Source of the DNA: an uncultured Bradyrhizobium sp.
Lineage (GTDB): Bacteria; Pseudomonadota; Alphaproteobacteria; Rhizobiales; Xanthobacteraceae
Direction of reading: 5' to 3'
DNA: 64,000 bases
Assembly: GCF_947648125.1 (NCBI RefSeq)
Contig: NZ_CANSMR010000025.1
Coordinates: 1-64,000 of the forward strand
Part shown: positions 5,371-25,445 of the stretch, piece after piece
Layout of the letters: each line of letters begins with the position of its first letter
Position numbering within the stretch: the stretch's first letter is position 1
Notes under the pieces: generated by a model
The model's input: the letters and a program-made list of their open reading frames with translations, nothing else
What the model was told of the DNA's origin: nothing
Databases searched by the model: none
Program-made: the position numbers and the translations under genes

Positions 5371-6861
5371 TCAAGCGTTCGCCAAATTCGCTTCCTTATT
5401 GAACTCGATGGTGAGTTGGTCCCATTCGCCCAGGCTGTCCTGAATTTTGCTCCAGAAGGACTGGGAGCGGCGCCGCTCAAAATCGGCAACTGAAACGCCT
5501 TGCTGCTCGACCCAGGTGTAGTAGCCGAGGTTAAAGACGGCGCGGCGCGAAAGCTCCGTCAGCTCGACGACATTGTCGGAGGCGGCGCCGAGCAGGCAGG
5601 CGCCGAAGATTTCGGCGGCGTTCACCTGATCAAGGCCACGCCCGTAATGCTTCTCTTCGAACTGCCTGCGTTCGCTGCCGTACATGGAAGCACTGTCCGT
5701 CGCCACGGTGACGACGGCCTTTTCGGGCCCGTAATTCATCTGCTTTGCCAGCTTGATCGAGGCGATGATGTTGGCGAGCCCGGAGATTCCGACATGGTCA
5801 AAGGCGCGCACCAGCGCCGGTTCGAGACCGCGGCGCGTCTCGAGATAATCCCGGCCCGCCTTCGAGCCGAACAGCAGGTTGAGCTGGTCCGTGGTTCGGT
5901 CCGAGACCCCGACAACGAAGTCGAGGTTCATGACATTGTGAATGAGCGGGATGTGCTTGTCGCCGATCCCCTGAATGTTGTGCTCACCATAGCCATTGTT
6001 GAGCATCGTCGGACACTCGAGCGCCTCGACGGCAACGACCTTCGAGCCCCAGCGTGTCTTGAGAAAATCACCCGCGGCGATTGTCCCCGACGATCCGGTT
6101 GCCGAGACGAAGGCCGCCAATTCGTGGTTATCGTCCTGATTGAACGCCTTGAAGGCATCTTCCGCCGCGCGCCCCGTGCATTCATAGTGGATGAGATAGT
6201 TCGAGAACGACGAGAACTGGTTGAGAATGACGTTGCTGTCGTCCCGCCTGAGCTCCGCGCACTTGTCGTAGATCTCCTTGACGTTGCTCTCGGTGCCGGG
6301 TGTCCGGATGATGTCGGCCGGATCCGTCACCCACTTCTCGAGCCATTCGAAGCGCTCGCGGCTCATCCCTTCGGGTAGAACGGCAACGCCGCGACAGCCG
6401 AGGATCCGTGAAACGGCGACACCGCCACGACAGTAATTGCCGGTGGAAGGCCAAACAGCCTTCTGTTTAGATGGATCGAACCGCCCGGTCACGAGCTGCT
6501 CGATCAAGGCGGCATATGCCGGCAGGACCTTGTGCGCGCCGATCATCGGGAAGCGATTGCCGAGCAGCACGATGATCTTGGCATCGACGCCGGTGATCTC
6601 CTTTGGCAGCACGATATAGCCCGGCACCAGGTCCCTGCCTCTGCGGTTTTCCGCATTGTACCAGTGCATGCGCCAGAGGTTCGCGGCGCTCGGCTCATCC
6701 GGTCCGATCGCCGCGATGTCCTCCCACACCTTGGCCGACGGAAGCGGTGGATGCGCGAGCTGAGAAAAGGTCGGCAGCGTCAGGTTAAGTTTGCGCGCTT
6801 GCGCCGCGGCTTGCCGCCAACCTTTCCTGTCGACAACATTCGGCTCGATTACAAACGCCAT
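5371..6861 (-). CDS. fold-type-II PLP-dependent enzyme, cysteine synthase-like, reaction unknown
   Basis: A 496-residue protein related to the cysteine synthase/threonine synthase superfamily. The likely Schiff-base lysine is Lys111 in NRFPMIGAHKV. The substrate-carboxylate loop is WPSTGNYCRGG (STGN motif) and the phosphate loop region is VSATGSSGTIAAG. It is about 150 residues longer than CysK, with extra N- and C-terminal parts, and belongs to a large-form family seen in databases only as PLP-dependent cysteine synthase family. The start at 6861 (MAFVIEPNVVDRKGW) aligns with the domain. The open frame extends 57 codons further but overlaps fbiC. Last gene of the pxpA-F420 operon, 52 bp after fbiC. 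Beta-elimination or replacement on an amino acid is likely, but the substrate is unknown. Confidence 0.85.
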   Translation of the reverse strand: MAFVIEPNVVDRKGWRQAAAQARKLNLTLPTFSQLAHPPLPSAKVWEDIAAIGPDEPSAANLWRMHWYNAENRRGRDLVPGYIVLPKEITGVDAKIIVLLGNRFPMIGAHKVLPAYAALIEQLVTGRFDPSKQKAVWPSTGNYCRGGVAVSRILGCRGVAVLPEGMSRERFEWLEKWVTDPADIIRTPGTESNVKEIYDKCAELRRDDSNVILNQFSSFSNYLIHYECTGRAAEDAFKAFNQDDNHELAAFVSATGSSGTIAAGDFLKTRWGSKVVAVEALECPTMLNNGYGEHNIQGIGDKHIPLIHNVMNLDFVVGVSDRTTDQLNLLFGSKAGRDYLETRRGLEPALVRAFDHVGISGLANIIASIKLAKQMNYGPEKAVVTVATDSASMYGSERRQFEEKHYGRGLDQVNAAEIFGACLLGAASDNVVELTELSRRAVFNLGYYTWVEQQGVSVADFERRRSQSFWSKIQDSLGEWDQLTIEFNKEANLANA

Positions 6862-6913
6862 TTTCAAACATCCCTGTTGGAGAGTTCTCTGCTCTCGCGG
6901 CCTTCCGGGTCCT

Positions 6914-24323: not shown

Positions 24324-24659
24324 TCCCATGCGTCTAGAAGAATTTTCGCACCGGCTTAATCGTGACGGAATTCGGCTTGAGCGCTTGAAAGGCGCCACGG
24401 CATCATTTGCGCCGCTTGGCGATCGCAAGCCTGTTAGTCGAGCATAAGGACCATGAACCTATAGATAGGATGTCCCGCCGAACATCACGGTGCTTGGCAC
24501 AAATCATGCTTATGCAAATCATGCTTATGAGCGTGGCGGCACTTTCGAAAGCATCGCTATGCAGCGCCTGCTTCTACAGCGATCACTCGGCTGCCACGGC
24601 CGCGTGGTGCGGCAGCGGACGCAGCGGCGTCAACGAGAACCAATAAGAAAGGATGGACC
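24324..24659. other. divergent intergenic region with a 15-bp tandem repeat
   Basis: No convincing gene is seen here. The region holds an exact tandem duplication of CAAATCATGCTTATG at 24500-24529 and a CTATAGATAG sequence at 24459-24468 that resembles a compressed form of the island operator. It separates the CoA-transferase operon from the acetamidase gene and should contain the promoters of both. Confidence 0.6.
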
Positions 24660-25445
24660 GTGGAGCATTATCTTACCTCGACACCAGATCATCTTCATTG
24701 GGGACTGTGGAATGGCCGGCTCAGTCCCGTCATCAGAATTGCGTCTGGTGATCGGGTGACGATCGAGACGCTATCGGCCGAGCCGGATGAAGCACTCGAT
24801 CTCGTGAGCGACCTGGTCGGACCGCTTGGTCGCAGCGACATCCTCGCGTCCCACGGAGCCGCACCGCGGCTATTGACCGGCCCGATCCATGTCGAGGGCG
24901 CCGAACCGGGTGACGTGCTCGAGGTTCGTGTTCTCGATGTCCGCCTGCGATCGGACTGGGGTTGGAACATGAGAGCACCGACGAGCGCTGCGCCGGAAAC
25001 GTCATTGGACTTTTGCTGCCAGCATGTCGCGCTCGATCGCGCGCGCAATATCGCGCGCCTGCCCTGGGGACAGGAGCTGAGATTATCGCCGTGCTTCGGC
25101 AACTTTGGTGTCGCGCCGCCGGCGAACTGGGACCCCCGCAAGCCGAACGAAGCGAATGGTTTCAGCGGGCGCATCGACAACAGGGATCTCGGCGTCGGAT
25201 GCACCGCCTATTTGCCAGTTTTCGTCGCAGGCGCATTGTTCTCGGCGGGGCATGGCCACGCGTTGCTTGACGATGGAAATGCGCTGCTCTCCGCCATCGA
25301 AACCGCGCTCGCCGGCACGTTCGAATTTCGCATTCGCCGCAATCTGCATCTTGCGACCCCTCGGGTCGAGACCACATCCGCGTCGGTCAGCCCATCGATC
25401 GTCAATGCGCATGCACCGCAAGTCCGCAGCCAACGCACGAACTAA
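24660..25445 (+). CDS. acetamidase/formamidase family protein, C-terminally shortened
   Basis: A 261-residue member of the acetamidase/formamidase family (usually about 300-320). Conserved motifs are present: HLHWGLWNGRLSPVI, GPIHVEGAEPGDVLEVRV, the FGNFGVAPP segment and PVFVAGALFSAGHGHALLDDG, which corresponds to the family's FSVGDGHAAQGDGE. In that last motif Asp is replaced by His (SAGHGHA instead of SVGDGHA). After PRVET the sequence no longer resembles the family and stops, so about 40-60 residues of the C-terminal lobe are lost. It starts at GTG 24660 after AAAGGA. It may be inactive or a decaying gene. Formamide or short-chain amide hydrolysis would fit the pathway. Confidence 0.8.
   Translation: MEHYLTSTPDHLHWGLWNGRLSPVIRIASGDRVTIETLSAEPDEALDLVSDLVGPLGRSDILASHGAAPRLLTGPIHVEGAEPGDVLEVRVLDVRLRSDWGWNMRAPTSAAPETSLDFCCQHVALDRARNIARLPWGQELRLSPCFGNFGVAPPANWDPRKPNEANGFSGRIDNRDLGVGCTAYLPVFVAGALFSAGHGHALLDDGNALLSAIETALAGTFEFRIRRNLHLATPRVETTSASVSPSIVNAHAPQVRSQRTN

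Follow-up and report, generated by a model that had tools for sequence, protein, structure and literature searches.

The first 64,000 nucleotides of contig NZ_CANSMR010000025.1 (C25 in our numbering), from the 8.57-Mb genome of an uncultured Bradyrhizobium sp. (assembly GCF_947648125.1), are called the window here. Its left part carries a gene cluster in which the synthesis of the cofactor F420 lies side by side with its putative use by an LLM-family oxidoreductase, together with genes for an importer, a molybdenum (Mo) hydroxylase, a coenzyme A (CoA)-transferase, two pyridoxal phosphate (PLP) enzymes and hydrolases. A first-pass annotation had described an F420- and Mo-dependent catabolic island at this place, and family scans located every gene that it named; it had left out the F420 genes CofGH, CofC, CofD, CofE and NpdG, which lie within the same interval. 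The genes and open reading frames (ORFs) are the following.

421-5138, minus strand: Liv-type ABC importer (LivF 421-1299, LivG 1112-1918, LivM 1915-2949, LivH 2946-3818, LivK 3930-5138)
5371-6861, minus strand: PALP2, a CysK-like fold-II PLP enzyme of 496 amino acids (family scans)
6914-9319, minus strand: CofGH, fused FO synthase (NCBIfam PRK09234, 1135.9 bits, cut-off 1018)
9319-10053, minus strand: CofC guanylyltransferase (TIGR03552, 155.5 bits, cut-off 105)
10020-10958, minus strand: CofD transferase (TIGR01819, 287, cut-off 257.45)
10955-11728, minus strand: CofE, F420-0:glutamate ligase (TIGR01916, 266, cut-off 180.65)
11732-12391, minus strand: NpdG/Fno, NADPH-dependent F420 reductase (TIGR01915, 186, cut-off 149.8)
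12413-13189, minus strand: PxpA (LamB/YcsF), lactam-hydrolase subunit (PRK05406.1-3, 347.7, cut-off 226)
13322-14632, plus strand: enzyme of the diaminopropionate ammonia-lyase family (PRK08206, 521.6, cut-off 276)
14772-15548, minus strand: GntR/UTRA regulator (family scan)
15583-16800, minus strand: Mo hydroxylase small subunit fused to CoxG (Fer2, Fer2_2 and COXG domains)
16797-17636, minus strand: Mo hydroxylase FAD subunit (family scan)
17633-20008, minus strand: Mo hydroxylase large subunit (family scan; nearest solved relative by sequence quinoline 2-oxidoreductase, 1t3q)
20215-21492, minus strand: M20 deacylase of the ArgE/DapE type (TIGR01910, 271.3, cut-off 217.6)
21528-22484, minus strand: LLM oxidoreductase, putative F420H2-dependent reductase (TIGR03619, 192.5 bits, cut-off 166.9)
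22509-23321, minus strand: CoTB, glutaconate CoA-transferase-like beta subunit (1poi_B, E 7.8e-48)
23272-24237, minus strand: CoTA, glutaconate CoA-transferase-like alpha subunit (1poi_A, E 8.6e-43)
24660-25445, plus strand: peripheral acetamidase/formamidase-like partial ORF (family scan)

The importer genes at 421-1299, 1915-2949 and 3930-5138 were named from Pfam, LivG and LivH from their position and from tblastn matches to annotated Liv genes of relatives, in which the Liv genes are likewise linked to the cluster. The solved relatives of LivK are generic leucine, amino-acid or urea binders and fix no ligand. The real start of the ammonia-lyase ORF is probably downstream of the called one. 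Judging from gene order, the set would form four transcription units, namely LivKHMGF, PxpA-NpdG-CofE-CofD-CofC-CofGH-PALP2, CoTA-CoTB-LLM-M20-MoL-MoM-MoS/CoxG-GntR (MoL, MoM and MoS being the large, FAD and small Mo hydroxylase subunits) and the divergent ammonia-lyase gene. All four F420 synthesis proteins clear their curated NCBIfam cut-offs, as does NpdG, and the apparently complete operon, contained in the block at 6914-12391, would allow the island to encode its own F420 supply.

Related loci were collected by scanning genome contigs for the LLM protein via six short peptides, a non-exhaustive search that yielded 37 loci, each viewed up to 10 kb to either side; genes were counted at identity thresholds, and an absence often reflects the end of a stretch. 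CoTB lies upstream of the LLM gene on the same strand in all 37 loci, CoTA in 36, the remaining locus being truncated where its contig ends. PALP2 stands ahead of the CoTA-CoTB-LLM trio, within 4.5 kb, in 22. As this order is conserved across the 37 loci, chance grouping is excluded, and the operons, whose scattering in relatives the first-pass annotation had proposed to look for, are linked. CofGH, NpdG and M20 were each counted in 23 loci, MoL and a GntR relative (at least 40% identity) in 22 each; PxpA (13), PntB (12) and the ammonia-lyase (9) are rarer. Liv, LLM, CoTAB, PxpABC, GntR and a Mo enzyme with two subunits in view make up the smallest cluster among those viewed (G100, L092). By name the carriers are mostly Hyphomicrobiales, joined by Cupriavidus and metagenome-assembled genomes (MAGs) labelled Acidobacteria, Vicinamibacteria and Rokubacteria, and the best named relatives of the LLM protein, at 99-100% identity, belong to Bradyrhizobium sp. 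C9, B. embrapense, B. sp. RD5-C2 and B. altum. In a Rokubacteria MAG (L042:1847-4127), SenA/EgtB-like and EgtD genes lie near a divergent PALP2-CoTA-CoTB-LLM set. On gene content and order, the set is a real and conserved island for F420 synthesis plus presumptive use.

The acetamidase-like gene, which had been counted into the set, is present at the locus and does not belong to its core. Its 261 amino acids face a profile of 373 positions, i.e. the ORF is partial, and a close copy (at least 70% identity) was found only in the 4 Bradyrhizobium loci among the 37, in one of them as two tblastn stretches, on which ground a core catabolic step for this protein was rejected. L018 and L090 contain more distant matches (36-46%).

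The link between the LLM protein and F420 was followed in a sample of 296 genomes of the same family, the window's own included, with thresholds of E <= 1e-60 for LLM and PALP2 and E <= 1e-80 for CofGH. LLM was detected in 51 genomes, CofGH in 80 and PALP2 in 53. CofGH accompanies LLM in 51/51 genomes and occurs in 29 of the 245 others (Fisher p 7e-37, uncorrected for phylogeny), LLM without CofGH being found in none; the two genes lie within 25 kb of each other in 39 of the 51 and on different contigs in the remainder. Together with the TIGR03619 score, this co-occurrence makes the LLM protein a putative F420-dependent enzyme. The window's genome is the sole LLM match in its genus (20 other congeners displayed are without one), and the island is thus patchy there. 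Another member of the genus, with CofGH and without LLM, carries a different F420 island (L121, G220:C5:50000-69999) whose CofE, CofD, CofC and CofGH genes lie among eight distant LLM-family stretches with 25-34% identity to the LLM protein of the window.

For the LLM enzyme both reduction and oxygenation had been considered; a reductase fed by NpdG/Fno is the more likely of the two, judging from the presence of NpdG in 23/37 and PntB in 12/37 loci. Transhydrogenase genes are part of the cluster in Sinorhizobium, Kaistia, Nitratireductor, Aminobacter, Labrys, Cupriavidus and others, and because NpdG makes F420H2 from NADPH, F420H2 would act here as a driven, low-potential reductant. A pathway that is oxidative throughout, with LLM oxidising the substrate at the expense of F420, and NpdG and PntAB recycling the cofactor, is very unlikely. 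LLM-fold F420 enzymes do include dehydrogenases (1rhc and 3b4y are among the matches) and both recycling enzymes are reversible in principle, but an oxidative route would presumably need neither so low-potential a cofactor nor a transhydrogenase in the operon.

The CoA-transferase appears to belong to the same reductive step. CoA activation had been placed last in the original scheme; the activation itself is retained, and since the CoTA-CoTB-LLM linkage is the tightest of the island, a place at the reduction rather than at the end is suggested. In the alignment of CoTB with 1poi_B, the VESG glutamate of the latter, which we take to be the catalytic residue of the glutaconate CoA-transferase beta subunit, is matched by FEGG. 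CO dehydrogenase was rejected as an identity of the Mo enzyme, whose large subunit scores 461.7 in TIGR02416 against an equivalog cut-off of 991.15.

Ring opening had been ascribed to either PxpA or M20, and in the survey M20 and PxpBC behave as alternatives. In the window cluster PxpA stands without adjacent PxpB or PxpC; a PxpB-PxpC-PxpA set with a second PxpA lies elsewhere in the genome (G000:C47:23235-25761, L119) and could be a source of PxpBC for the island. An M20 ortholog (74-100% identity; limits of 1e-60 and 1e-100 in two scans, two 31% matches left out) was found in 24 of the 51 LLM genomes and PxpC within 30 kb of LLM in 28, and the two are near-exclusive, with both in 3 genomes and neither in 2 (Fisher p 4e-9, uncorrected for descent). 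Genus g25 shows both states (M20 in G270, G266 and G106; PxpC in G065, G123, G205 and G274), as does genus g23 (M20 in G268 and G288; PxpC in 19 genomes). On account of this near-exclusivity and these swaps within genera, M20 and PxpBC look like alternatives for one hydrolysis. Sinorhizobium has a dihydroorotase-like PyrC as well as M20.

The PLP enzymes had been assigned to the end of the route; this assignment is kept and can be sharpened, as several findings point to a 2,3-diaminopropionate-type amino acid, the kind of intermediate known from the reductive uric acid pathway. The enzyme at 13322, a member of the diaminopropionate ammonia-lyase family, has conserved the positions that align with K77, D120 and D189 of its E. 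coli counterpart (4d9g), presumably the catalytic ones. PALP2, with its presumed PLP lysine K111 in the nearly invariant stretch FPMIxAHKVL, occurs in 49 of the 51 LLM genomes versus 4 of the 245 others, and in three of these four (G037, G148, G239) it sits in clusters of urate type, while in the fourth (G035) it lies where a contig ends, next to CoTA and F420 genes. Within the same family, PALP2 homologues (52-57% identity) outside F420 clusters have as neighbours a second PALP enzyme, a Mo hydroxylase of TIGR03311 and a hydrolase resembling SsnA; some of these side clusters add YgfK-like and YgeY-like proteins, YgeW and carbamate kinase; in L094 the Mo hydroxylase (904.3 vs 830.45 bits), YgeW (617.9 vs 500) and carbamate kinase score above their cut-offs. 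Four LLM genomes (G053, G079, G100, G133) have their sole PALP2 match in such a urate-type cluster, away from LLM. Only G007 (74% complete) and G253 (99%) carry LLM without PALP2, and both have the ammonia-lyase, which is present in 18 of the 51 LLM genomes; one or the other PLP enzyme is found in 51/51. Among Sinorhizobium plasmid records with LLM, 12/12 carry the ammonia-lyase and 0/12 have PALP2 on the same record. It is because of the family and residues of the 13322 enzyme, the urate-type setting of PALP2 and the ammonia-lyase of PALP2-less carriers that a diaminopropionate-type end is proposed. A gene of the L-serine ammonia-lyase family comes after LLM in 10 loci, of which two belong to a single genome; one of these proteins reached 644.6 in NCBIfam (cut-off 345), and three were scored with Pfam. 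L086, L090 and L103 also have genes for glycine cleavage close to the cluster.

Further observations concern the settings of PALP2. In the urate-type clusters L093-L097, L099-L101 and L077 a PALP2-PALP3 pair stands where E. coli has YgeX, and is possibly a two-enzyme replacement of diaminopropionate ammonia-lyase. PALP2 homologues on a Rhizobium plasmid (L123:12962-14461) and a Bosea plasmid (L124:13070-14404) have M20 and TauE/SafE exporter genes within about 8 kb; neither record gave a match to the window LLM, and L123 has at its edge an annotated gene of the LLM class, a different one. In the Bosea locus a RidA gene lies near the PALP2 homologue, with a transposase gene between them.

The PLP enzymes also bear on two other substrate classes. 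A ring acid without a hidden diaminopropionate, such as pyrrole-2-carboxylate converted via 5-oxoproline to glutamate, or a nicotinate-like pyridine carboxylate reduced with the help of CoA, would leave these enzymes to side reactions. Such a substrate would suit PxpABC, which works on 5-oxoproline, and CoTAB, whose nearest PDB sequence is glutaconate CoA-transferase, and pyridine breakdown commonly begins with Mo hydroxylases; it is nevertheless decidedly unlikely, as it leaves the ammonia-lyase, the L-serine ammonia-lyase and PALP2 without a role, although PALP2 or ammonia-lyase is present in every LLM genome. It is also quite unlikely that the island degrades a preformed plant amino acid of diaminopropionate type (an N-acyl, ureido or heterocyclyl alanine) by a route that M20 or PALP2 would open, the Mo and LLM enzymes then dealing with the ring so released. 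Legume symbionts are among the carriers, and on rhizobial plasmids the ammonia-lyase adjoins an annotated Zn-dependent hydrolase in 2/3 examples viewed, but many carriers are by name non-symbionts (Ancylobacter, Kaistia, Labrys and acidobacterial MAGs) and the hydrolases are less constant than the CoTA-CoTB-LLM trio.

We therefore favour, with a probability slightly below one half (about 0.47), an inducible island for the breakdown of an N-heteroaromatic carboxylic acid, the defining step of which would be an F420H2-driven, low-potential reduction of the ring, and the end of which would be of diaminopropionate type. Gene content, completeness of the F420 pathway, conservation, co-occurrence and the swapping of parts are read from the sequences, and from these we infer every reaction, inducibility, in which direction LLM works, what CoA does and which substrate is used. 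The Liv importer would take up the ring acid and the CoxG-fused Mo hydroxylase would place oxygen on the ring beside nitrogen. CoTAB would then load CoA onto the carboxylate and thereby conjugate the neighbouring ring double bond to a thioester, which would let it accept a hydride, and LLM would reduce the ring with F420H2 supplied by NpdG/Fno from NADPH (itself from PntAB in many relatives). That would leave a lactam or cyclic urea, for whose opening the candidates are PxpABC with ATP and a PxpA/M20 variant, represented in Sinorhizobium by PyrC and M20. From the 2,3-diaminopropionate, or compound closely derived from it, that this releases, diaminopropionate ammonia-lyase and/or PALP2 would form pyruvate and ammonia, the PALP2 route perhaps running via serine in view of the L-serine ammonia-lyase of some clusters.

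A ring acid that conceals N-C(COOH)=C-N would fit the smallest cluster. The best single guess, and a doubtful one, is imidazole-4-carboxylate, degraded via 2-oxoimidazolidine-4-carboxylate. The latter would be a close analogue of 2-oxothiazolidine-4-carboxylate, which 5-oxoprolinase is reported to accept (PMC6270228). In a literature search on the breakdown of imidazole-4-carboxylate, the term was absent from the 20 papers listed out of 7,986 partial matches in the open-licence literature.

A number of observations weigh against this interpretation. Twenty-nine of the 80 CofGH genomes are without LLM, so F420 has further uses as well, and the stretches examined of L033, L035, L036, L038 and L042, all outside the family, hold no F420 genes. 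In L015 and L017 the medium and small Mo subunits directly follow M20, with no large subunit in view. Co-regulation of the operons, described as apparent in the first-pass annotation, is suggested by gene order and the GntR gene, but no common operator emerged among the palindromes of seven upstream or intergenic stretches, a few of which run into coding ends. A cyclic urea as the ring would leave M20 without an evident function, which is a weakness of the scheme; the M20/PxpC pattern is confounded by descent, as 19 of the 25 M20-less, PxpC-linked genomes belong to one genus, and PxpC linkage can be missed in fragmented genomes. The Sinorhizobium loci L004 and L005 have neither PxpA nor PALP2 within the 43-45 kb examined.

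The diaminopropionate end is subject to similar reservations. The urate-type label of the PALP2 side clusters is itself drawn from gene content: the SsnA-, YgfK- and YgeY-like proteins of L094 score below their family cut-offs, and HyuA was not identified in these clusters. Of the two PALP2-less genomes, G007 may lack the gene through an assembly gap, G253 has its ammonia-lyase on a different contig from LLM, and the two may share the ammonia-lyase by coincidence (about 1 in 8, given 18/51). The 12 Sinorhizobium records are closely related and thus not independent. In L004 (S. meliloti R28 pSymA), unlike S. fredii L005, CofE and the ammonia-lyase are each in two pieces, owing either to decay or to sequencing error; the incomplete gene table of L004 holds neither. 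The ammonia-lyase occurs in 80 plasmid records, just 12 of which have LLM, and two plasmid records carry PALP2 in other settings, so that PALP2 is not specific.

Beyond the island, a separate-looking run on the minus strand (25519-37177) comprises genes for a DctP-type binding protein, an FAD oxidoreductase, a class II aldolase, a 2-hydroxyacid dehydrogenase, an FGGY kinase, ABC ATPases and a sugar-type binding protein. Of a sample of 10 ORFs scanned in the right half of the window, 5 were unmatched at the limit used; some may be antisense frames.

What the island could mean is best seen against the literature on F420. A 2021 review states that no F420-dependent reductases or dehydrogenases had been studied experimentally in bacteria beyond the actinobacteria, and its outlook names as an unanswered question why Proteobacteria make F420 (PMC8498797). 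The island, if the proposed function is correct, could explain why some of these bacteria do so, and as the cluster points to a single reductase, along with the source of its electrons and the enzymes that work with it, the question becomes testable by a single gene deletion. It would also lend a metabolic meaning to a region of a S. meliloti megaplasmid. A 26-kb region of pSymA in strains GR4, KH35c and KH46 is associated with nodule competitiveness, its tagged genes including fbi genes, Liv, PyrC, an M20 deacylase, an ammonia-lyase, PntAB, a putative caffeine dehydrogenase, GctAB, LLM and GntR (PMC8407117). That study reports genes by association, the parts of it considered here give no pathway, and its authors regard the role of F420 as worth further attention (PMC8407117). 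The functions of the tagged genes match the gene content of L004, and GR4 carries both LLM and the ammonia-lyase; judged from gene functions rather than a map of the region, the island block very probably corresponds to the competitiveness region. A bolder version of the proposal, which we consider improbable, holds that PntAB and NpdG let the proton-motive force push electrons into F420H2, so that an aerobe could reductively dearomatise a CoA-activated, Mo-hydroxylated azole carboxylate, that F420 is kept for this one purpose in a large share of F420-making Alphaproteobacteria (51 of the 80 CofGH genomes sampled in the family), and that in Sinorhizobium the pSymA competitiveness region confers this ability in the rhizosphere. 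The azole carboxylate would be imidazole-4-carboxylate or a close relative, yielding a cyclic diaminopropionate derivative to be opened by PxpABC or M20 and passed to the PLP lyases.

Among the closest known systems is the reductive uric acid pathway (XdhD, YgfK, SsnA, HyuA, YgeW, YgeY, YgeX), which ends in diaminopropionate and pyruvate (PMC12507026). The island would share with it a Mo enzyme, reductive dearomatisation, ring opening, an M20 protein and a diaminopropionate-type end, and PALP2 homologues are common to the island and the urate-type clusters; it differs in having F420 and LLM in place of YgfK, PxpA(BC) and a CoA-transferase, and a CoxLMS-type Mo enzyme with fused CoxG. A putative F420-dependent reductase has been noted beside SsnA in Chloroflexota (PMC12507026), so that F420 in reductive ring degradation is already in print as an idea. 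It is accordingly conceivable, if unlikely, that the island represents reductive purine (urate/yanthine) degradation in an F420-dependent form, with LLM replacing YgfK, as proposed for Chloroflexota. The diaminopropionate end, M20 and the Mo hydroxylase would fit, and a Mo subunit of the S. meliloti strains has been annotated as a putative caffeine dehydrogenase (PMC8407117), but SsnA, YgfK and YgeW were found in 0/37 F420 loci at the thresholds used. The window's genome gave no SsnA match (in a search run without a positive control), and its best YgeW score was 25.1 bits against a cut-off of 500 (control matches were obtained in 14 genomes, above the cut-off in 1). The M20 protein (132.5 vs 321) and the ammonia-lyase (TIGR03528, 349.8 vs 532.25) of the window stay below the YgeY and YgeX equivalog cut-offs, ring opening and deacylation are each represented just once in the island and twice in the published purine route, and both cluster types coexist in several genomes. 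The plain urate pathway was rejected because, in these searches, SsnA, YgfK and YgeW were missing from the F420 loci, and SsnA and YgeW from the window's genome as well. Without SsnA, and with a CoA-transferase and PxpA, the island is a variant different from the Chloroflexota one in print.

There are further likenesses. The anaerobic nicotinate route employs 6-hydroxynicotinate reductase, which is of another reductase family, and enamidase, and is not known to use a PLP lyase; the proposed sequence of Mo hydroxylation, ring reduction and hydrolytic opening resembles it. With 5-oxoprolinase PxpABC the island shares PxpA, although the window cluster is without PxpBC, and PxpC is linked in 28/51 LLM genomes; glutaconate CoA-transferase GctAB is the nearest PDB sequence to CoTAB, the beta-subunit glutamate being aligned. 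The Sinorhizobium pSymA region has PyrC and PntAB, and no PxpA or PALP2 in view. As the first-pass annotation had supposed, no described pathway with this gene set was found in the open-licence literature searched.

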